64,000 bases of DNA from Desulfurococcaceae archaeon (GTDB lineage Archaea > Thermoproteota > Thermoprotei_A > Sulfolobales > Desulfurococcaceae): the NCBI GenBank assembly GCA_023269825.1, contig JAGDWI010000002.1, positions 62,001 through 126,000 of the forward strand, given 5' to 3'. Position 1 is the first letter of the stretch. Every line of letters starts with the position of its first letter. Both the position numbers and the translations under genes were made by a program. Positions 5,729 through 55,566 of this stretch are shown here, one piece after another. The notes beneath the pieces are model-generated. The model ran no database searches. It was given only the letters and a program-made list of their open reading frames with translations, and was not told the origin of the DNA.

Positions 5729-6538
5729 ATGAGCGTAAATTTAAGTGGAAGAGTAGCAGTGGTGACAGGTGGGGCAAGAGGAATTGGTTTGGAAATATCT
5801 ATTACTTTAGCTAAACATGGTGCACATGTAGCAATCATCGATAAATCGGCAGAGGACTTAGAGAAAGCTCTCGAGGAAGTTGAGAAGCAAGGGGTTAAAG
5901 CTCTTGGTTTAACATCTGATGCTACAAAGAGGGATCAAATCGATAGGGCAATAAGTGAAGTAGTAAAGGAGTTTAATCAGATCGACATATTAGTAAATAA
6001 TGTTGGAGCATATCCTAGAAAACCATTCATAGAAATGACTGAGGAATTTTGGCGTGAAATGATTGATGTGAATTTGACGAGTGCATTCTTGTTTACAAAG
6101 GCGGTTGTACCCATAATGATGAAAAGAATGTATGGTAGAATAATCAATATATCATCAATAACTGGTTTATATCACGGAGTCCCGGGCTTAGTATATTATG
6201 GTGCTGCTAAAGCAGGTTTAGTGGGATTTACTAAGTGCTTAGCAGCAGAGTTAGCGCCATATAAAATAACCGTGAACGCGATTGCTCCTGGTCCAATATT
6301 AACGCCTGGAGTGAGGTCTATATGGAGTCCCGAGGACATTAGAATACAGGAGCTCGTGAATCCACTTAAGAGATTTGGTTTACCGCGAGACGTTGCAAAC
6401 GTTGTTGTGTTCCTTGTTAGTGATTACGCGGAGTTTATAACGGGTCAACTAATAGTCGTAGATGGTGGATTAACATTTGTAAATCCACGGCAAGTAGTTA
6501 AAGAAATACTAGAATTGAAACAGAGAGGAGAACTTTAA
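5729..6538 (+). CDS. Short-chain dehydrogenase/reductase
   Basis: Classical SDR oxidoreductase of 269 residues, using NAD(H) or NADP(H). Seen: TGGARGIG cofactor loop near the N-terminus, NNVGAYP (the NNAG motif), the INISSITG strand with catalytic Ser, and YYGAAKAG with the YxxxK pair, then APGPI. Acidic Asp at the end of beta2 (IIDKSAEDL) favours NAD over NADP. It sits 16 nt downstream of the epimerase gene and is probably cotranscribed. It resembles gluconate/sugar dehydrogenases and 3-oxoacyl-ACP reductases; since archaea of this group lack fatty acid synthesis, a sugar or hydroxy-acid substrate is more likely. Confidence 0.88.
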   Translation: MSVNLSGRVAVVTGGARGIGLEISITLAKHGAHVAIIDKSAEDLEKALEEVEKQGVKALGLTSDATKRDQIDRAISEVVKEFNQIDILVNNVGAYPRKPFIEMTEEFWREMIDVNLTSAFLFTKAVVPIMMKRMYGRIINISSITGLYHGVPGLVYYGAAKAGLVGFTKCLAAELAPYKITVNAIAPGPILTPGVRSIWSPEDIRIQELVNPLKRFGLPRDVANVVVFLVSDYAEFITGQLIVVDGGLTFVNPRQVVKEILELKQRGEL

Positions 6539-6553
6539 TTTTATTAAAACACC

Positions 6554-7858
6554 TTAATCAATCCAGTCTCCGACGGATAATTTCTCGGGGATGTATTTAT
6601 CGGCTAGAAACTTTAAACCCTTACTCGCCATAGCTTCGATTTCTAGTTTGCTTAGAGTATTGAAGAATATGCATATTTCACGAGTCCATTCCGGTGTTGA
6701 GAACCAAGGATAACCTGTTAAACCCTCTTTTTTCTTAACCTTGTTCTTAACTTCTTTATCTTCAATGCAGACTTCTGCTACCTTGTAACCCACTAGCTCA
6801 ACAGCTCTTTCAAGGTCCTTGGTTTTAGCTTTAATAATGAAGTTCGATCTCTCGGATTCATCTAGATACGGGGATTTAGGTTTCAGCTCGCTTACACCTG
6901 GAGTTATTTCCTCGAGTATTTTTCTTGAGTCTTTGTCCTTGACTATTTTCCTGAACACCGAGTCTCCGAAGATGTCCGTCATCATGACACCAATGAATTT
7001 CGCTGAGGGAGTTGCTAAGCGCTCGCTTTCATACGATAAAGTAATGCTACCAGCTTTGAACACGCTGTATATATAGAATCCGTATGGATCACTATCAGCT
7101 AGTATGTAAACAGGTAGTTTGTACTCATCGCTTAGTCTTCTAACGAATCTCCTTGTTGCACGGTCAGGTTGACCAGCACTTGTAACTAGTATTGCCTTAT
7201 ATTTCCTCCAGAAACCATATCTGTGGAGTTGTTGGAAGACAGCGTCTTTCTCAACTACGAGTATGTACTCGGCATCTACATCTACGAACTCTATTAGATC
7301 AGGGGTTGGTTCAATTGCGTAAGCTCCATGCCCCATTTTACTTAAGTCTATTGTATCATCACCGCTTCTAATAACCAGGTTTCCAACAACTTTGCCTTTC
7401 TCCTTGCTCAAGATGAGTAAGTCTTCGCGTAGAACCGAGAGGAAAACTTCTAGGTCTCTTATAACGCTATCGGATTCCCTTTGCTCTTCCCAAGTGTTTT
7501 CATTAATGCGTTTGCCGTCAACAGTTCTGTAGCTTATAGAGTGTTTACCCCTATAGTATAAATCACGTATTGTTGGATACTCATTGTTTCTCAGAGCATC
7601 AAATATTATTGAAGCCATTAGCAGTGTTTGCATGAATTTCTTGGCTTCATTTACATCCGTGAAAGACCGGTGTTGAACCTCTGGCCCTAAAAGCAGCATT
7701 TTTCTCCTTAAATCATAAATAGTATTAGAGAGAGTTCGCTTCGGTATCACTAATACCGGTTTTTCACCTTCATTGATTTGCTCTACAAGGCTCTTCATGG
7801 AACTTTTTATGAGGTCGAGAGCTTTATTTCGAGCAGCTAAATCTGCTTGGGAAGGCAT
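6554..7858 (-). CDS. top6A: DNA topoisomerase VI subunit A
   Basis: Catalytic, DNA-cleaving subunit of the type IIB topoisomerase, homologous to Spo11. The 5Y-CAP domain holds the motif TIRDLYYRGKH with the active-site tyrosine, and the Toprim region shows VVEKDAVFQ and LADSDPYGFYIYSV, carrying the Glu and DxD metal ligands. Length (434 residues) is a little above the usual ~370-390. The frame opens with TTG at 7867 but AGGTTGATC just upstream of the ATG at 7858 makes that the better start. It directly follows top6B in the same operon. TopoVI relaxes supercoils and decatenates chromosomes in archaea. Confidence 0.96.
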   Translation of the reverse strand: MPSQADLAARNKALDLIKSSMKSLVEQINEGEKPVLVIPKRTLSNTIYDLRRKMLLLGPEVQHRSFTDVNEAKKFMQTLLMASIIFDALRNNEYPTIRDLYYRGKHSISYRTVDGKRINENTWEEQRESDSVIRDLEVFLSVLREDLLILSKEKGKVVGNLVIRSGDDTIDLSKMGHGAYAIEPTPDLIEFVDVDAEYILVVEKDAVFQQLHRYGFWRKYKAILVTSAGQPDRATRRFVRRLSDEYKLPVYILADSDPYGFYIYSVFKAGSITLSYESERLATPSAKFIGVMMTDIFGDSVFRKIVKDKDSRKILEEITPGVSELKPKSPYLDESERSNFIIKAKTKDLERAVELVGYKVAEVCIEDKEVKNKVKKKEGLTGYPWFSTPEWTREICIFFNTLSKLEIEAMASKGLKFLADKYIPEKLSVGDWID

Positions 7859-21204: not shown

Positions 21205-22359
21205 ATGCATTTGATAAGAGGAGTGAGGCTATGGGTTTTTAGCTACAGTGAAGAGCAACTAGAGAAACTAAAAGTAGATAAACAAATGCTACGTGAAATC
21301 ATTAAAGAACTCAAAAAATGGAGAGCTCACGCAACAATACTGCTAAGTCTATATGTACCACCAGGTAGACCTATTAGTGATGTCTTAGCATTGCTAAGAG
21401 AAGAAATGTCGGTTGCGGAAAACATCAAATTAAAGAAAACACGTAATGCTGTTACATGGGCGTTGAGTGTTGCATACGATAGGTTGAATAAAATACCTAA
21501 AATACCAGATAACGGCTTAGTCTTATTTGCTGGAATGAACCCTGATACCGGTGAAACAACGGTCGTAATGCTTGTTCCACCTGAGAGTGTACCAGTGTTT
21601 TTCTATAGGACAGATAAGTATTTCCACACCGAGTTCTTAGAGGAAATGATTACTGAGAGTAATATCGCGGGTTTAATAATCATTGAAAGAGACGCTGCAA
21701 CTATAGGGATACTTAAAGGTAATAGATTAGAAGTATTGGAAGAACTCGAGGCATATATTCCAGGTAAACACCATAAAGGAGGTCAAAGCCAGAGAAGATT
21801 CGATAGAATAATAGAGGAAATGGTTGAAGATTTCTACAAAAAAGTAGGTGAACACGCGAATAACATATTTCTACCTCTATACGAGCAGAAAAAATTAAAA
21901 ACAATAATTATAGGGGGTCCTGGTTACGCTAAACAAGACTTCATACAGGGAAACTACCTAGATTATAGACTTAAGCAAATAGTTGCATCTGAGTTAATAG
22001 ACGTATCTTACCAAGGTGAAGTAGGGTTAAGAGAATTAATAACTAAAGCCGGGGATTTACTTAAAGAGTACGAGTACGCTGATTCCATGAAGCAACTCGA
22101 GGAATTCAAGTATCATTTAGCTAAAGATGATGGATTAGTAGTTTATGGTGATGAAGAAGTAAAATTAGCACTCGAGCAAGGTCTACTAAAAACCCTCCTA
22201 ATTGGAGAGACAAGAGAAGATGTAAATCAATGGTTAGAAGCAGCTTCACATAAAGGAGTGAAAGTGGTTGTAGTGAGTAATGATCTCCCAGAAGCAGATT
22301 GGTTTAATAAAACCTTTAATGGTATAGCCGGTATTTTGAAGTTCAGAGTAGAATACTAA
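21205..22359 (+). CDS. prf1: Peptide chain release factor aRF1
   Basis: Archaeal/eukaryotic-type class I release factor recognising all stop codons, 384 residues. The N domain carries the decoding loop as AENIKLKKTR, the crenarchaeal version of NIKS, and the M domain has KGGQSQRRFDR with the GGQ motif that triggers peptidyl-tRNA hydrolysis. The C domain (after residue ~230) with GPGYAKQDF completes the fold. The 5' end is uncertain: TTTAAAAA at 21186-21193 looks like the TATA box, so ATG 21205 would be leaderless or nearly so, and GTG 21223 is an alternative. Monocistronic. Confidence 0.95.
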   Translation: MHLIRGVRLWVFSYSEEQLEKLKVDKQMLREIIKELKKWRAHATILLSLYVPPGRPISDVLALLREEMSVAENIKLKKTRNAVTWALSVAYDRLNKIPKIPDNGLVLFAGMNPDTGETTVVMLVPPESVPVFFYRTDKYFHTEFLEEMITESNIAGLIIIERDAATIGILKGNRLEVLEELEAYIPGKHHKGGQSQRRFDRIIEEMVEDFYKKVGEHANNIFLPLYEQKKLKTIIIGGPGYAKQDFIQGNYLDYRLKQIVASELIDVSYQGEVGLRELITKAGDLLKEYEYADSMKQLEEFKYHLAKDDGLVVYGDEEVKLALEQGLLKTLLIGETREDVNQWLEAASHKGVKVVVVSNDLPEADWFNKTFNGIAGILKFRVEY

Positions 22360-28990: not shown

Positions 28991-29252
28991 CTAGATCACC
29001 TTTCTCCAAGTACTTAGCAACGTATACGTCGAGAGCATATATCCATAGTGCGAGCGGTATAGCAACAACAGTTAAAATTGGTTCCTTGAAAAATATGGAG
29101 AATAATATCATAAGGACTACTGACGCATAAGTAATAGTATCTATCGCTAAAACCTGGTCTCCCAGAGTTGGTCCTTTAAGTGCTATTACAGTTAACAGAA
29201 CTATTGAAATAGTGTACAATATTGAAACAGCTAGTAAAAGCTCCCAGATCAC
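28983..29252 (-). CDS. mbhB: Mrp-like subunit MbhB (MnhF)
   Basis: Three-span membrane protein homologous to MrpF, 89 residues. The KGPTLGDQVLAIDTITYASVV region is the family signature, with the buried Asp in LAIDT thought to take part in ion transfer. GTG start overlapping the end of the ferredoxin-like subunit gene; the two are translationally coupled. Confidence 0.9.
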   Translation of the reverse strand: MIWELLLAVSILYTISIVLLTVIALKGPTLGDQVLAIDTITYASVVLMILFSIFFKEPILTVVAIPLALWIYALDVYVAKYLEKGDLGA

Positions 29253-29650
29253 TGTGACTTTACCTCTTTGAGTGTTTTAAGTGATAAATCCTCAGACGTG
29301 TACCTTGTGGGACCAGCAATATCATATTTACTGGTTACAATATAAGCGTTTACAGGGCATACTTTGACGCATCTATAACAGTAAACGCATTTACCATAGT
29401 TTATCAATGGATACAATCTACGTGGATTTATTTTAGGAACCGCGTACTCCTGTGGAATAGGAGTCATTTTAATAGCGTCTGCAGGGCACTCTATTGAGCA
29501 CAGTGAGCAACCAGTACATTTAGATAAATCAGCGTACTGTATTCCGCGAAAATCAGGTTCTATAGTTGTTTTCTCGCGTGGATACTGAATAGTTGCAGGT
29601 TTGCTGACGAGGTTTCTAAGCACGGTTTCAAGTAGCTTAGGGCGCTTCAT
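29249..29650 (-). CDS. mbhN: Hydrogenase ferredoxin-type subunit MbhN (NuoI-like)
   Basis: Electron-transfer subunit with two [4Fe-4S] clusters, 133 residues. Motifs CTGCSLCSIECPADAI and CVYCYRCVKVCPVNAY are each complete CxxCxxCxxxCP cassettes. It passes electrons from reduced ferredoxin toward the catalytic MbhJL pair. ATG at 29650 after GGTGG, overlapping the stop of the large-subunit gene. Placed here directly after mbhL, whereas in Pyrococcus mbhN ends the operon. Confidence 0.93.
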   Translation of the reverse strand: MKRPKLLETVLRNLVSKPATIQYPREKTTIEPDFRGIQYADLSKCTGCSLCSIECPADAIKMTPIPQEYAVPKINPRRLYPLINYGKCVYCYRCVKVCPVNAYIVTSKYDIAGPTRYTSEDLSLKTLKEVKSQ

Positions 29651-37351: not shown

Positions 37352-37720
37352 GTGCTTGTACTCGAGAAGAAGAGAAATAAAATAGAGTTTAAAGCCCCCG
37401 AGGCTAAGGACATATGTGCAGCAGTTTATGCTCTCACAATGCTTATTCCTCCAGGTTTCGTGACAAGTTATAGTAGTATAGCTAAAACTCTGGGAGTGCA
37501 TCCACGTAGAGTAGCTTTATGCTTGAAGAATAACAGTGAGCTGATAATTGTTCCTTGTCATAGAGTAGTATATGGCACGAGGAAAATAGGAGGCTATAGT
37601 AAACTCGGCAAATCCTTCAAGAAGAAGCTCCTCTTGCTCGAGGGAGTGGTCTTCGAGGACGAGGACACAGTGTCACGAAGTAACTTCATCGACTTAGAGA
37701 ACCTCCTGGGCAAAAATTAG
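37352..37720 (+). CDS. ogt: Methylated-DNA--protein-cysteine methyltransferase
   Basis: Suicide DNA repair protein removing alkyl groups from O6 of guanine, 122 residues: only the C-terminal DNA-binding/active-site domain, as in several archaea. Seen: IPPGFVTSYSSIAKTLGVHPRRV (helix-turn-helix with the Arg finger), the acceptor site IVPCHRVV, and GGYSKLGKSFKKKLLLLEG. GTG start 10 nt after the DUF89 gene. Its 3' end overlaps the convergent regulator gene by 35 nt. Confidence 0.93.
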   Translation: MLVLEKKRNKIEFKAPEAKDICAAVYALTMLIPPGFVTSYSSIAKTLGVHPRRVALCLKNNSELIIVPCHRVVYGTRKIGGYSKLGKSFKKKLLLLEGVVFEDEDTVSRSNFIDLENLLGKN

Positions 37721-38072
37721 TAATCGCCATTTCCTCTCCTAGAGCGTTGAGAATCGATCTCAATACTTTATCATTCCTCACGATCTTCTCGCAGATTACG
37801 CATGGATGGAAAAGAGCTCCTCTATAAATCTCAAGGACATATAAATCTAGAATGCTTTTTAATTCAGGGCATTTATCAACTAGGTTCATACATTTTGATC
37901 TCCGTCTACCTGTGACGATATAGTTTACAGCTGGTTGAGCCATATCGAGTAATCTAGCCACTCTTAACTGTGGAACCCCGTAATCCTTGACTAAAACGCA
38001 TGCAATATATGCTTTTATTGCTGGTAGGATTTTCTTAGTGTATATTTCGCAATATGATCTCGTTGAAATCAC
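37686..38072 (-). CDS. Predicted HTH transcription regulator
   Basis: A 128-residue protein with a helix-turn-helix in VKDYGVPQLRVARLLDMAQPAVNYIVTGRRRS, key residues L-VARLL-AQPAVNY. The C-terminal half contains scattered cysteines (HPCVICEKIVR, TNFCPGG) that could bind metal or a cluster. This resembles a small archaeal family of predicted regulators with similar HTH and cysteine tail. The open frame reaches 38123 but its first 17 residues look non-native; GTG 38072 is my choice, without strong SD support. Convergent 35-nt overlap with ogt. Confidence 0.65.
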   Translation of the reverse strand: MISTRSYCEIYTKKILPAIKAYIACVLVKDYGVPQLRVARLLDMAQPAVNYIVTGRRRSKCMNLVDKCPELKSILDLYVLEIYRGALFHPCVICEKIVRNDKVLRSILNALGEEMAITNFCPGGSLSR

Positions 38073-39489: not shown

Positions 39490-41160
39490 TTAGTGCATAC
39501 AAAGACTTATAATTTTGTTTAGGTAGAGCTCAGCTACCACTACGGGATCTTTAATTTCAAGTTTATAGAGAATTCTAGGATCTATTTCTCCAACGAAACC
39601 TAATTCGTCATTGCATCCTTTAATTACAGCTGTTCTTTCTGGCAGAAACCCTGGAATCGTTGTTCTCTCAAATGAGGGATCAACGTTGAATTCGCGTAGT
39701 AGTGTCTTAACATACGCTAATCCATCTGTTATTGTTGCTTTTTCATGTGATATAGCGATCCCAAGTCTTCTCTCAATACGGGCTTTAGTTTCTTCTTTGG
39801 GATCAGGTAAAACTACGTCTCCTATTTCAAACACCATTATCTTAGCGTGTTTACCCGTGTTCTCCTTAACGACTTCAATCAATTGTGGTGTAAGCCATAT
39901 TCTTAACCCCTCGAATCTCTCGGATCTAGGGTTCTCAACTAAGAACATTTCTTGTCGAGTTCCAAGTAGCTCTTGTTGAGTACTTCTACTACTCATCATG
40001 TAGTTAGCTACTTCCTGGAAACCCAATCCCACCAATAGGTCTCTTAATTTACGCGAGAAGTATTCTATTGGATGCATTTTTCCAGGAGTATTTGTTGGTG
40101 GAAGGGAGAGAGCCTCCGAGCCGAGGACATCATACCCGTAAGCTATCGCAACGTCTTCAACTACATCAACCCATGTTCTTACATCTATTCTATAGATGGG
40201 TGGTTTAACGATCAACATGTCATCGCTTGCTTTAACAACTTCATAGTAAAAGTAGTTTAAGAACTCGATGAGGTGTTTCAACTCTAGGTTAGTGCCCAGT
40301 AGATTATTTACATTCCTTAAAGTCACCGTTATCTCGGGGGAATCTATGCGTGGAGCTTCCGCGATTGATCCATCCTCGTAGTATACTTTAATTTTCTCGA
40401 TTAATCCTGACGAGGATCGCTCAACAATACTTGTAGCCATAATGGTTACAGCGTTAATTACATCATCGAGGCTTGTCCCCGTTGCGTCTATTAGAGCGTT
40501 TCTCGTGAAAGGTGTTACTTTAAAGTCATCACTATTAATTATCGGCACTAAACTCAGTATTTTTCCACTAGAATCCCGTAGAACCGGGTATTTAGGCATT
40601 TCCTTAATTATGTACCCATACATTAAACCCTTCTCCGTTTTCTCGAGGATTTCTCTTAGATTCATTTGCTTGCTCTCATTCAGTGGATGCATTAAAGTAG
40701 TATCGGGGTCAGCTAAATCATAAAATATTGGTGGTTTAATGTAGTCGAGATCATATACTCCAATGCTTATTTTTCTTCGTCCACGCCCATATGTTTGAGT
40801 GATTTTTTCCTGTAGCTGCATGATCTGAGATACTGCTTCATCTGTCAATACAAGATCCCTTACAACGGCGAGAGCAACGTAAGGTCTATCAGGAATGTTT
40901 CGTGCATATCCCTTGATCTCGGAGTCTTCAACTCTGTATCCTCTCCAGCTAAGTCTAAGCCAGGGTTTCAAAGCACGTGAAACTCCTTCAGCGCTAAAAA
41001 GATCTGGCCTATCGCTGTTAGCTTCATATATAATGGAGTCTTCCTCGATTGCTTCTATTTCGCACTTCAGCCTCGTGAACAACTCGTAGATATCATTTAC
41101 CGTGATTTCTCTTCCAAGTAGTGAATAAAGATCGCTTTTACTTATCTTAACTACCGGCGT
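39490..41160 (-). CDS. pheT: Phenylalanyl-tRNA synthetase beta subunit
   Basis: Archaeal-type beta subunit, about 556 residues. B3/B4 editing-domain sequence (EANSDRPDLFSAEGVSRALK), B5 domain (SPEITVTLRNVNNLLG) and the catalytic-like core (FQEVANYMMSSRS, VENPRSERFEGLRIWLTPQL) are recognisable. The first ATG in frame is 41082, but the frame continues upstream with PVVKISKSDLYSLLGREITV, the usual archaeal PheT N-terminus. The codon before it is ACG at 41158-41160, placed 6 nt after GGGGTGA (41167-41173). No ATG, GTG or TTG lies in frame between this point and the upstream stop, so a non-AUG start at ACG is the best reading. Confidence 0.93.
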   Translation of the reverse strand, partial: TPVVKISKSDLYSLLGREITVNDIYELFTRLKCEIEAIEEDSIIYEANSDRPDLFSAEGVSRALKPWLRLSWRGYRVEDSEIKGYARNIPDRPYVALAVVRDLVLTDEAVSQIMQLQEKITQTYGRGRRKISIGVYDLDYIKPPIFYDLADPDTTLMHPLNESKQMNLREILEKTEKGLMYGYIIKEMPKYPVLRDSSGKILSLVPIINSDDFKVTPFTRNALIDATGTSLDDVINAVTIMATSIVERSSSGLIEKIKVYYEDGSIAEAPRIDSPEITVTLRNVNNLLGTNLELKHLIEFLNYFYYEVVKASDDMLIVKPPIYRIDVRTWVDVVEDVAIAYGYDVLGSEALSLPPTNTPGKMHPIEYFSRKLRDLLVGLGFQEVANYMMSSRSTQQELLGTRQEMFLVENPRSERFEGLRIWLTPQLIEVVKENTGKHAKIMVFEIGDVVLPDPKEETKARIERRLGIAISHEKATITDGLAYVKTLLREFNVDPSFERTTIPGFLPERTAVIKGCNDELGFVGEIDPRILYKLEIKDPVVVAELYLNKIISLCMH

Positions 41161-41166
41161 TTTATT

Positions 41167-42786
41167 TCACCCCAGTTTCTCGCTAATAGTACTCCAAGCT
41201 TCCGATATCACTTGTTTTTCCTCATTCGTCCAGTGTAATAGATTTTCTAGTTGAAACATTTCAAAGTAGTCTTTCACACCATATATGTGAGCGAGAGGTG
41301 CATATACAGTGATGAATGTATGAGCACCTTTTATATTTCTGAGTTTATTGTATTTTTCTAGTCCAAGTATACTATATAAGTATCGTGATGAAACAGGCGT
41401 TAAACGCGGATCATACTCTATCTTTACCTGTGATTCAAGCAACTTACTTAGTCCAGATGCATCAATACCTGTTTTAATTGACTCCATGTGGTACCATGCT
41501 TTAACGTAGTCTAAGAATAGTTTCTCCAATTCATCTCTCCTATAATCTATTGATACTAAATACCCTGCTAGTGATGCAGCGATCGACGTGCTTATGATCT
41601 GTGTTTGAGAAATAGTATCAACATCATCCATATCGGTATGATAGTACTTACTTGGCCACTCATTAAGCATGGCGCTGTCAAGCCCCCATAAGATAGTTAC
41701 GTCGTGATCGCTTCCCGCGGTATACGGCGACAGCGAGTACCTCGAAGCAGGCAACTTAAATCCGCCGAATGAACTCGCTTCATCAAATACGAGTTTTACT
41801 CCTAGGTATACGTATGATGATACCATGGATTTCATGAATAATGGTGAATTAACTATGTTCAATGTAGAATTAGTGATCCACTGTTTAGAGCCAACCATGT
41901 CTAGATTTATTACTGCTTTAGGAACCCATGGTAAAACCTTATCCGCGAATATTGTACCAGAGTACTCTGGTACAAAGAGATGAGCATGGGGGATTTTTTT
42001 AGGGGAGTTATCAACTAACTCGGATACAACAATATTGGATATAACGCCACTAGCATTATCATGTGCACCCGGCTTAGGGTGACATATATGACTAACGTAG
42101 AGTACTCCGGGATCATCGCCTTTGTACGCTAATAACCCATACATTGGCTTAGTAGAAAAACTCGATTCTACTTTCCAGCAGACTTCAACTCTTTGGCCTC
42201 TCGAAATCCTTGATAATAGCTTTAAAGCGGTATTGTATGGTATATTTACAACACTCGTGTTCTTAACGTCGTTTACTCCTATGAATAAACCAGTATAAGG
42301 TACTGCTTCGGGGTAACGTTTACTATCATATAGAATAATTAATCGAGCCTGGATTTCCCGGTAAGCAACAAATGCGGGGGCCTCCACTATTACTGCTTCG
42401 CCTGCACAGTTAGATAAGTCCTTGCATACTTTTACCTCACTGCATCCCTCACCAGGTGGGGAGTGAGCGGCGATTAATGTCGGATGATCTAAGTAGTTGA
42501 ATCTCAACTTGGATTCATTACCTATACTGAATTCAACGTACCCGTTTACAGCGTTCCACGAGGCAGGGGTTTCCATGAATCCTTTCACACTACTACTGGG
42601 TACTTCAAATATTCTTGTTTCGAAGCCGTTTTCTCTAAGAATATCTGCGACTTCGTACACGGCTTTCTCGAGCCCGATGGAGCCCTGGATCCTATTATAT
42701 AGAGTTATCTTCCTCAGTAGATCTCTAACTTTACCTTGTAATGGAACACTCTTATAAACATCGATTAGTTGATGTAGCTCAGCCAA
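41167..42786 (-). CDS. DUF4910 aminopeptidase-like protein (M28-type metallopeptidase fold)
   Basis: A 539-residue soluble protein with a DUF4910/M28-like zinc peptidase core: VSHICHPKPGAHDNASGVIS holds metal-binding His and Asp, VPEYSGTIF the Glu, LDMVG the next Asp, and YHTDMDDVD the final His, in the order expected of M28/clan MH aminopeptidases. The C-terminal ~120 residues form an extra helical domain. TTG 42786 follows AAGGGTGTTG; GTG 42795 is the frame limit. It is directly upstream of pheT and shares a divergent promoter region, with an operator-like palindrome, with the glucan phosphorylase gene. Likely degrades peptides in the cytoplasm. Confidence 0.82.
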   Translation of the reverse strand: MAELHQLIDVYKSVPLQGKVRDLLRKITLYNRIQGSIGLEKAVYEVADILRENGFETRIFEVPSSSVKGFMETPASWNAVNGYVEFSIGNESKLRFNYLDHPTLIAAHSPPGEGCSEVKVCKDLSNCAGEAVIVEAPAFVAYREIQARLIILYDSKRYPEAVPYTGLFIGVNDVKNTSVVNIPYNTALKLLSRISRGQRVEVCWKVESSFSTKPMYGLLAYKGDDPGVLYVSHICHPKPGAHDNASGVISNIVVSELVDNSPKKIPHAHLFVPEYSGTIFADKVLPWVPKAVINLDMVGSKQWITNSTLNIVNSPLFMKSMVSSYVYLGVKLVFDEASSFGGFKLPASRYSLSPYTAGSDHDVTILWGLDSAMLNEWPSKYYHTDMDDVDTISQTQIISTSIAASLAGYLVSIDYRRDELEKLFLDYVKAWYHMESIKTGIDASGLSKLLESQVKIEYDPRLTPVSSRYLYSILGLEKYNKLRNIKGAHTFITVYAPLAHIYGVKDYFEMFQLENLLHWTNEEKQVISEAWSTISEKLG

Positions 42787-42866
42787 AAACAACACCCTTT
42801 AACTATTAATCAAGTTAATTTTTATAGTTATATACGCGTGTAACTTAAGACACAAGTAGGTTTCAT

Positions 42867-54018: not shown

Positions 54019-55566
54019 TTAAAGCGGTATTGGTACAACTTTCAAGTTTTGGCCGGTTGTTTTACGAGTAAAATATGGGAGCCCCGTGTATTTAATGTTT
54101 TGAAGAGTATTGAGATCCCTCGTGAACAGTAACCTTATGTCATCAACGCCGAGAACAGTCATAGCTAACCTGTCTACGCCGATACCCCATGCAACAGCAT
54201 TGTATCCCCCGGCTCCAAGGATCTTCATTACCTCGGGCCTAAAAACACCACCCGGGAACACCTCGATCCACCCTAGTTTCGGGTGTTTAACGTATCCCTC
54301 CACGCTAGGCTCAGTGAATGGGAAGTAACCTGGTTTAAACCATATTTCCTTAATACCGAGAGCTGCTGCTAGTTCCTTGAAGAAGTATAATAAGTGTTTG
54401 AAGTTCACGTTTTTACCAACGATAACTCCATCTAACTGATAGAACTCCATACTATGCTTTGCGTCAAGGTTTTCTGGTCTAAAGTTTCTATCAATAGTGA
54501 AGACTCTGTATTCACCTGGCCCACGCTCGTATATGGCTCGCGCGGTTACAGCCGTGGTTTGGCTTCTTAACACTAACCGCATTGCTCTTTCAGGGCTCCA
54601 CTTATATTTCCAACCAGCTTCATGTATACTTCTCGCGCGTTCAACTATGTCATGTGGTGGCGTTGCTTTTAAGTCATTTTTAACGAAGAAAGTGTCATGT
54701 ATTTCTCTAGCAGGGTGATCTTGGGCTTGAAATAGAGCGTCGAAATTCCATAACTCTGCTTCAACGTGCGGTCCCTTTACTTCCTCGAAACCCATGCTAA
54801 TCATTATTTCTCTGAGTTCATCTATAAACTGCATGTAAGGATGCTTCTTTGAGAGAGGTGGTGAAGGAGGCTCGATCGCTAAATCGAATTCCTTAATCAA
54901 GTAGCGATCTAATTCAAGAGCATACTCTGGTTTAACCACTGTTACTAAAACTCTTTCTTTAATGAGGTTCCGGCTCCATGAATCCAGTAGTTTCTCCGTT
55001 GGTTTAACCATGATTATTGTTCTCTCGCGTCGCTCTATTAATTTCCTTCTCTTTAATAAGTTTATGGTTTCCTCGTCCAGTATTTCACCTTGTTGTAAAG
55101 CACGTAGTTTTTCTCTAATGAGATCAGGTGATCTTAGTGCATCTGTGCACTTGTCCGGATTAATTGAAGCAATGATCTTTCTCTCTATGATTAAACATTT
55201 ATTCTTAACTAGGTACTGTATACCTATTTGAGCTTCTTCCCGTGAGATACCAGTTTCTTCTTCAATATACTTAATTAGTTCATCAATGCTTCTTTGCGTG
55301 AAATCCTTTAGAACCCTGTACACTACTTCCTCTGGGAAACCATTCCTCAAATACTTCTCCGCTATCCCCGTGAGAACATAGTAAGGTGAACTCTTTTTTT
55401 CTACTTTGATTAAGCTCTTTGACTCTAGCTCGGATATATCTCTCATCAAGTCCTCGGGTTTAACGCCTAGGGATTCAGCTATGTTATTCAATGAAGCATC
55501 CTTTTTCACTATGATTTGTTCGATGATTTTCCATTGCCTTGGCGTTACGTAAACATACGCTTCCAC
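54019..55566 (-). CDS. pheS: Phenylalanyl-tRNA synthetase alpha subunit
   Basis: Catalytic alpha subunit, 515 residues, archaeal/eukaryotic type with N-terminal winged-helix repeats (residues ~1-200). Class II motifs: LRSQTTAVTARAIYERGPGEYR (motif 2 region) and GGYNAVAWGIGVDRLAMTVLG (motif 3 with the Arg). PHVEAELWNFDALFQAQDHPAR is the family's motif 1 neighbourhood. GTG start at 55566 after GGTG. Encoded 13 kb from pheT, so the subunits are made from separate operons. Confidence 0.96.
   Translation of the reverse strand: MEAYVYVTPRQWKIIEQIIVKKDASLNNIAESLGVKPEDLMRDISELESKSLIKVEKKSSPYYVLTGIAEKYLRNGFPEEVVYRVLKDFTQRSIDELIKYIEEETGISREEAQIGIQYLVKNKCLIIERKIIASINPDKCTDALRSPDLIREKLRALQQGEILDEETINLLKRRKLIERRERTIIMVKPTEKLLDSWSRNLIKERVLVTVVKPEYALELDRYLIKEFDLAIEPPSPPLSKKHPYMQFIDELREIMISMGFEEVKGPHVEAELWNFDALFQAQDHPAREIHDTFFVKNDLKATPPHDIVERARSIHEAGWKYKWSPERAMRLVLRSQTTAVTARAIYERGPGEYRVFTIDRNFRPENLDAKHSMEFYQLDGVIVGKNVNFKHLLYFFKELAAALGIKEIWFKPGYFPFTEPSVEGYVKHPKLGWIEVFPGGVFRPEVMKILGAGGYNAVAWGIGVDRLAMTVLGVDDIRLLFTRDLNTLQNIKYTGLPYFTRKTTGQNLKVVPIPL

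Follow-up and report, generated by a model that had tools for sequence, protein, structure and literature searches.

The gene for the beta subunit of phenylalanine--tRNA ligase (pheT) of a Desulfurococcaceae archaeon lies in a window of 64,000 nucleotides (GenBank assembly GCA_023269825.1, contig JAGDWI010000002.1, positions 62,001 to 126,000), and is very probably translated from an ACG codon (41160-41158) by near-cognate initiation driven by a Shine-Dalgarno-like (SD) stretch, as one case of a wider use of such starts in the family. A first-pass annotation of the window had proposed that pheT starts at this ACG and had called for the codon to be compared with close relatives. This comparison has now been run, and it supports the proposal: the codon recurs in two other species, G007 (JAUQPA010000006.1) and G003 (DADP01000014.1, UBA285), the genome of the window itself being G000. 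The features that bear on the argument are the following.

39490..41160, minus strand: pheT, phenylalanine--tRNA ligase beta subunit, 556 codons from the ACG plus the stop (TIGR00471, Pfam B5 and CLM domains, 2cxi)
41158..41160, minus strand: ACG, the inferred pheT start codon; the same column is ACG in G007 and G003
41167..41173, minus strand: GGGGTGA, SD-like stretch ending 6 nt before the ACG and including the TGA that terminates the upstream gene
41080..41082, minus strand: TTG at codon 27, the first standard start that follows in the pheT frame, and a rival start
41167..42795, minus strand: upstream gene, M28-type peptidase/DUF4910-like (PF04389, E-value 1.2e-6), in the frame of pheT and ending 6 nt before the ACG

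On the minus strand the codons GAG AAA CTG GGG TGA AAT AAA lead up to the ACG and CCG GTA GTT AAG ATA follow it; positions 41173-41158 read GGGGTGAAATAAAACG, with the C of the ACG at 41159. The annotated GGGGTGA therefore does stand 6 nt ahead of the ACG, and the in-frame TGA (41169-41167) that doubles as the stop of the peptidase-like gene is separated from the ACG by AAT AAA only, so that, as had been stated, no ATG, GTG or TTG lies in between. The annotation had also placed the conserved N-terminus 26 codons before the first ATG; the distance holds, although the standard start found there is a TTG and not an ATG. The protein matches TIGR00471, the archaeal PheT family, with an E-value of 3.9e-118 and 395.3 bits (cut-off 282.65) over residues 2-550, and profile position 2 aligns with residue 2 of the ACG-started protein. 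The solved archaeal-type beta chain 2cxi is likewise aligned from residue 2, and other beta chains of the enzyme also match. In G000, a draft genome of three contigs, pheT is present as a single copy (one match).

A search of 61 genomes (our own and 60 others) found pheT in 60, and the start region was read in 30 of the returned loci. The start column holds ACG in three of these genomes (G000, G007 and G003), ATG in 13, TTG in 11 and GTG in three; within the genus the ACG occupies it in three of eight genomes. The codon is thus one base from AUG at the place where the relatives start. G007 is the nearest species compared (75-76% identity) and has the same layout, TGA ATT AAA ACG, in which the next standard start is a GTG at codon 78, so that a downstream start would cost the N-terminal domain. 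In G000 and G007 no standard start stands between the upstream stop and the conserved N-terminus. Because the ACG is found in two other species whose genomes are separate metagenome assemblies, it is not a sequencing error, and resequencing is unlikely to give ATG at 41159. In the PheT tree G000 and G007 are sisters (100/99), and G003 groups with G004, which has ATG, and G006, which has GTG (100/99). Since the tree splits G003 from the other two, the ACG appears either to be older, with reversions, or to have arisen twice. Elsewhere, pheT of the near-complete genome G016 (C1:257994-259658, L011) is broken by a TAG, and its reading ends after residue 174.

The same position was then viewed across the phylum in 398 genomes, using a degenerate pattern of an SD, any NYG codon and the PheT N-terminus, which matched in 94 of them, and an alignment search that located pheT in 384 of the 398, with the better part of the places listed. 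At pheT the pattern picked out ACG in G000 and G003 and CTG in G084, G098 and G243. Full reading of all three CTG sites showed no standard start between the CTG and the preceding stop; the context in G084 and G098 is AGAGGTGATTTAAACTG, in which the TAA of pheS ends one base before the CTG. These sites belong to a set of 20 regions, picked for matches that did not begin at residue 1, and hence do not give a rate. Among the loci read, L105, from a Bathyarchaeota metagenome-assembled genome, has the TGA of pheS followed by GAAT ACG and no standard start back to the stop; four further family loci have TTG at the pheT start, and a base error in this single genome is therefore possible. Near-cognates other than the standard starts make up 7 of 58 codons (about 0.12), and by simple arithmetic four independent pheT cases would all be near-cognate about 2 times in 10,000.

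In the mechanism that we propose, the GGGGTGA stretch would position the small ribosomal subunit with the ACG in the P site at a spacing of 6 nt, which is a normal one, and the ordinary initiator tRNA (anticodon CAU) would decode the ACG as methionine despite a mismatched middle base. GGTGA pairs with the tail of 16S rRNA, as is established in general rather than from the 16S of this genome, and at 6 nt it may retain the ACG in the P site for the time that acceptance of the CAU initiator tRNA requires. With proline as residue 2 the methionine would be removed, and the mature protein would start with PVVKI either way. As the stop codon of the peptidase gene lies within the SD, terminating ribosomes could restart at once, which might aid a weak codon; the upstream stop indeed lies a few nucleotides before the start on the same strand (6 nt in G000 and G007, 13 nt in G003), the arrangement expected for termination-reinitiation. 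In archaea, SD-led complexes stay near the start and scan locally, with the initiation factor aIF1 destabilizing wrong pairings (PMC6237735, in part), and reinitiation in Haloferax drops steeply with distance according to the available part of PMC10666635. The sequence, its conservation, the SD, the lack of another start in two species and the CAT anticodon of the initiator tRNA are observed directly; initiation at the ACG, methionine as the first residue, reinitiation and any regulatory role are inferred from sequence. The pheT start would then be one instance of the near-cognate starts (ACG, CTG, ATA and ATC) found behind well-spaced SDs in this family.

The initiator tRNA has an intact body and a CAT anticodon in every copy read, and in G000 the copy is interrupted by introns. 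No initiator tRNA with a CGU anticodon, as a reassigned tRNA reading ACG would have, was found in G000, and there was no sign of one altered to read ACG among the copies read, that of G003 being broken by an N. An altered tRNA had been suspected when the uninterrupted anticodon-arm motif was found to be missing in exactly G000, G003 and G007. It was rejected, as introns split the motif in both G000 and G007, the anticodon read is CAT and the G003 copy contains the N; in addition G005, whose pheT starts with ATG, has introns too, and its one match to the motif is not a tRNA. The G000 gene (C2, about 857829-857484, minus strand, L069/L080) lies in pieces: two introns surround the anticodon arm, and the T-loop has a break of at least about 180 bases. 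The flanks of this break, GGGGGATGCCCGC and GCGGGCATCCCCC, are perfectly complementary, and a TATA-like sequence stands ahead of the 3' piece; the break may represent a long intron or a tRNA that has only recently been split. At the corresponding T-loop position, G005 carries a short intron.

Several observations weigh against initiation at the ACG as proposed here. G003 reads AAG GTG ACA TAT ACG, with an in-frame GTG inside the SD three codons before the ACG, and by itself would not need the ACG. In all eight genomes of the genus, whatever the start codon of pheT, an open reading frame (ORF) of 494-498 codons stops 2-13 nt ahead of the gene, and some of the other near-cognate candidates do not follow another gene closely; the idea that coupling is the cause of the ACG is thereby weakened, and coupling is a helper at most, because congeners with standard starts share the layout. 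According to part of one report, aIF1 disfavours non-canonical starts in a Sulfolobus solfataricus system (PMC6237735). Finally, over codons 2-26 the proportions of nonsynonymous and synonymous differences (pN and pS) are about equal, at 0.29 and 0.30 between G000 and G007 and 0.47 and 0.52 between G000 and G003, and G000 and G007 are only 48% identical in this N-terminal stretch versus 83% over residues 27-150. The constraint on codons 2-26, as judged from these alignments, is patchy.

These codons nevertheless keep family-conserved positions. Fourteen positions within codons 2-26 reach 85% conservation or more, by residue class, in the 27 non-ACG genomes, and 13 of them are kept in G000, 13 in G007 and all 14 in G003. 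Together with the recurrence of the ACG in the genus, this goes beyond coincidence. Changes at first and second codon positions affect 3/28 sites in conserved versus 10/22 in other codons between G000 and G007 (Fisher p 0.007), 8/28 versus 16/22 between G007 and G003 (p 0.002) and 8/28 versus 11/22 between G000 and G003 (p 0.10). Most pairs with standard starts are likewise less alike in the N-terminal stretch. We therefore read codons 2-26 as a probable genuine, if loosely constrained, N-terminus.

These data bear directly on a start at the TTG (41082-41080), which would make PheT 26 residues shorter. It is the first standard start in frame, and codons 2-26 do evolve faster than the remainder, but the family-conserved positions are kept upstream of it, the TIGR00471 profile already aligns from residue 2 of the ACG-started protein, no SD-like stretch could be seen by eye ahead of it, and G007 has no standard start at its position, the first there being the GTG at codon 78; we regard such a start as very unlikely. 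It is also highly improbable that translation starts at the GTG embedded in the SD (GTG AAA TAA in G000, GTG AAT TAA in G007) and shifts +1 across the stop to reach the pheT frame, the GTG of G003 being simply in frame. All three ACG species do have a GTG at that place, and a start codon followed by a stop at a +1 site exists in the aRF1 gene of the family. However, no separate SD was seen by eye for the embedded GTG, slippage at AAA T or AAT T would be poor, and endA, adk and the G003 homologue of the window gene at 37686-38063 (all described below) show by eye the same 6-nt spacing with no stop at that place.

ACG is the sole near-cognate that C-to-U editing would repair, and an mRNA edited to AUG before translation, as in chloroplasts, would account for pheT; the CTG, ATA and ATC starts of the family are not repairable in this way, and we give editing little credence. 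No literature search was aimed at archaeal mRNA editing. That an ATG has been misread in sequencing or assembly is suggested by no more than the draft state of the genome, in three contigs, and is extremely unlikely with the same codon present in the separate assemblies JAUQPA010000006.1 and DADP01000014.1. Readthrough of the TGA, fusing PheT to the upstream peptidase, would fit the frame that the two genes share in G000 and G007, but in G003 the upstream ORF ends with a TAA 13 nt before the ACG and in a different frame, which makes a fusion scarcely conceivable.

A peculiarity confined to pheT was rejected when ORFs were tested one by one for homology in stretches of G000 (462,615 bases including the window), G005 and G007, and of G026 and G034, two single-contig genomes of another genus which we take to be Desulfurococcus. 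The ORFs tested numbered 266 in G000, 252 in G007, 234 in G005, 261 in G026 and 283 in G034 (1,296 in total), with a further 86 from five single loci of G001, G002, G003, G004 and G006; 22, 27, 18, 25 and 28 were flagged in the five genomes respectively, and 20 in the single loci. An SD-spaced near-cognate codon was present in 24 of all the flagged ORFs, of which 16 were kept and eight dropped by eye, a split that is a matter of judgement, made with a spacing rule that had partly been seen before its use. Twelve of the 16 kept cases fall in the five sampled genomes, or 12/1,296 (about 1%). As G026 and G034 each consist of a single contig, their near-cognate cases are no draft artefact.

The cases kept are pheT (G000 and G007), endA with ACG (G000 and G026, GGTGA plus 6 nt in both), adk with ACG (G007), a HAD gene (G006), a CLP1-like gene (G026), a NuoC-like gene with CTG and a flavoprotein (G005), the aconitase-X swivel gene with CTG and a flavin adenine dinucleotide (FAD)-binding subunit (each in G026 and G034), moaA (G003 and G004) and, with ACG, the G003 homologue of the window gene at 37686-38063; ATA and ATC starts occur in moaA and the FAD-binding subunit. 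Among them endA, adk, the G003 homologue, the NuoC-like gene, the aconitase-X swivel, moaA and the FAD-binding subunit make convincing candidates; moaA and the flavoprotein are the weakest of the 16. The eight dropped were the window minus-strand ORF 29249-29650, with AAG just ahead of its ATG, AGG codons in G005 (L175), G006 (L093 1219), G026 (L211) and G034 (L234), AAG codons in G026 (L221) and G034 (L244), and an ACG just ahead of ATG in G007 (L199). A further CTG candidate, in G007 (L203), is without an SD. The homologue in G003 corresponds to a second candidate in the window itself.

38061..38063, minus strand: second candidate ACG start in the window, for gene 37686-38063, which has no family match; GGGTGA stands 5 nt upstream

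At this candidate an in-frame GTG lies inside the SD, three codons upstream. The homologues read GGTGATATCG ACG in G007 and GGTGAGTAAAA ACG in G003, and the latter, GGTGA GTAAAA ACG, has no standard start in frame.

A homology-free count anchored on the SD, restricted to frames that stay open for 80 codons and are preceded by a stop but by no standard start, points the same way. Six nucleotides after GGTGA (n=159) there were 26 ATG, 30 TTG, 20 GTG, 5 ACG and 3 CTG, and at spacings of 12-21 (n=588) 5 ACG and 2 CTG; ACG and CTG together thus account for 8/159 versus 7/588 (Fisher p 0.006, with pooled orthologues that are not independent). Standard starts were commonest at spacings of 4-7 in these samples. 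In the five sampled genomes of the family, starts at ACG, CTG, ATA or ATC seem to be used by about 1% of the homology-tested ORFs, in most cases with a GGTGA-type SD 6 nt upstream. We think it rather likely that the family uses ACG, CUG, AUA and AUC as regular starts for about 1% of its genes, essential ones included, where a GGTGA-type SD stands 6 nt upstream, that these codons are long-lived, and that standard gene finders miss or truncate such genes. Because the endA ACG occurs in two genera and the pheT ACG in three species, the SD may count for more than the codon in archaeal start selection.

No ACG start in an archaeal gene was found reported in the open-licence literature, where the nearest cases are HVO_1510 and small ORFs of Methanosarcina mazei. 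One review on initiation in archaea names AUG, GUG and UUG and, in the part available, does not mention ACG (PMC7531240). For HVO_1510 of Haloferax, either a CTG start or an out-of-frame ATG with slippage has been proposed, and upstream peptides were found (PMC8305020, in part). Like pheT it is an archaeal gene with a conserved N-terminus upstream of any ATG, GTG or TTG; it differs in its CTG, in being a haloarchaeal leucine-pathway paralogue and in that no argument from SD spacing appears in the available part of the paper. Ribosome profiling (Ribo-seq) of M. mazei gave CTG starts for 5% of unannotated small ORFs (PMC11456600, in part), which are also archaeal near-cognate initiation, but in short unannotated ORFs rather than conserved long genes, and ACG does not figure in the main text as far as available. 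Bacterial near-cognate starts (AUU, CUG and others) resemble that of pheT in being one base from AUG, led by an SD and read by the ordinary initiator tRNA. They are inefficient in Escherichia coli (Hecht 2017, as cited in the available part of PMC10666635). Unlike them, pheT belongs to an archaeon with initiation of the e/aIF1 and e/aIF2 type, encodes an essential synthetase and keeps its codon across species. The termination-reinitiation pairs of Haloferax and E. coli share with pheT a start few nucleotides from an upstream stop, but in the portion seen of PMC10666635 they mostly overlap by 1-4 nt, whereas pheT has a 6-nt gap and a non-standard start. In chloroplasts ACG also opens conserved genes and is edited to AUG (PMC9845219, in part); these starts differ in needing C-to-U editing, which would be useless for the other near-cognates described here. 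A conserved ACG start in an essential gene would offer a clean test of how strictly archaea select start codons (through aIF1, aIF2 and the SD), a question shared with eukaryotes. For such genes the N-termini given in annotations would be incorrect, and gene calling limited to ATG, GTG and TTG may make intact genes seem broken or truncated.

The aRF1 gene mentioned above carries what looks like a prfB-type autoregulatory +1 frameshift site in an archaeal release factor.

21205-22359, plus strand: aRF1 (peptide chain release factor) gene, TIGR03676, 435.8 bits

At 21231-21243 of the window the plus strand reads ATG GGT TTT TAG C, and the conserved protein goes on in the +1 frame. All 30 loci of our own genome and the family (L250-L279) have ATG or GTG, one codon and YTT TAG just before a SYSEE-like reading in the +1 frame, 27 as found by pattern and three (L253, L264 and L271) by reading the strings. 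Twelve of these loci have an ATGA whose TGA shuts the +1 frame immediately upstream. In G000 it is also open upstream to the ATG at 21205, and therefore the window by itself would not reveal the site. CUU or UUU followed by UAG C follows the logic of bacterial prfB (CUU UGA C), and the CUU form equals the Mimivirus eRF1 site CUU UAG C as given in the available part of PMC3521657. No archaeal report of an aRF1 frameshift site was found in the open-licence literature; in a large frameshift screen some prfB sites less than 50 nt from the start escaped detection, according to part of that paper (PMC3711429).

The window also holds a pheS-like gene, which is separate from pheT here.

54019..55566, minus strand: pheS-like gene with a GTG start (ORF, named by eye)

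Two of the flagged ORFs of G000, L166 6312 and L166 9912, have no plausible start and may be frame errors. The former (6312-7158, plus strand), like phosphoribosyl pyrophosphate synthetase by eye, has its N-terminus cut by a stop relative to G007, and represents a frame error, an intron or a broken gene. In G005 (L178) and G007 (L208) a gene that resembles an acetyltransferase by eye has ATG AGT TGA directly before the conserved frame and no standard start for 51-52 codons, which may reflect readthrough, initiation at a near-cognate codon or overlap with the gene before it.

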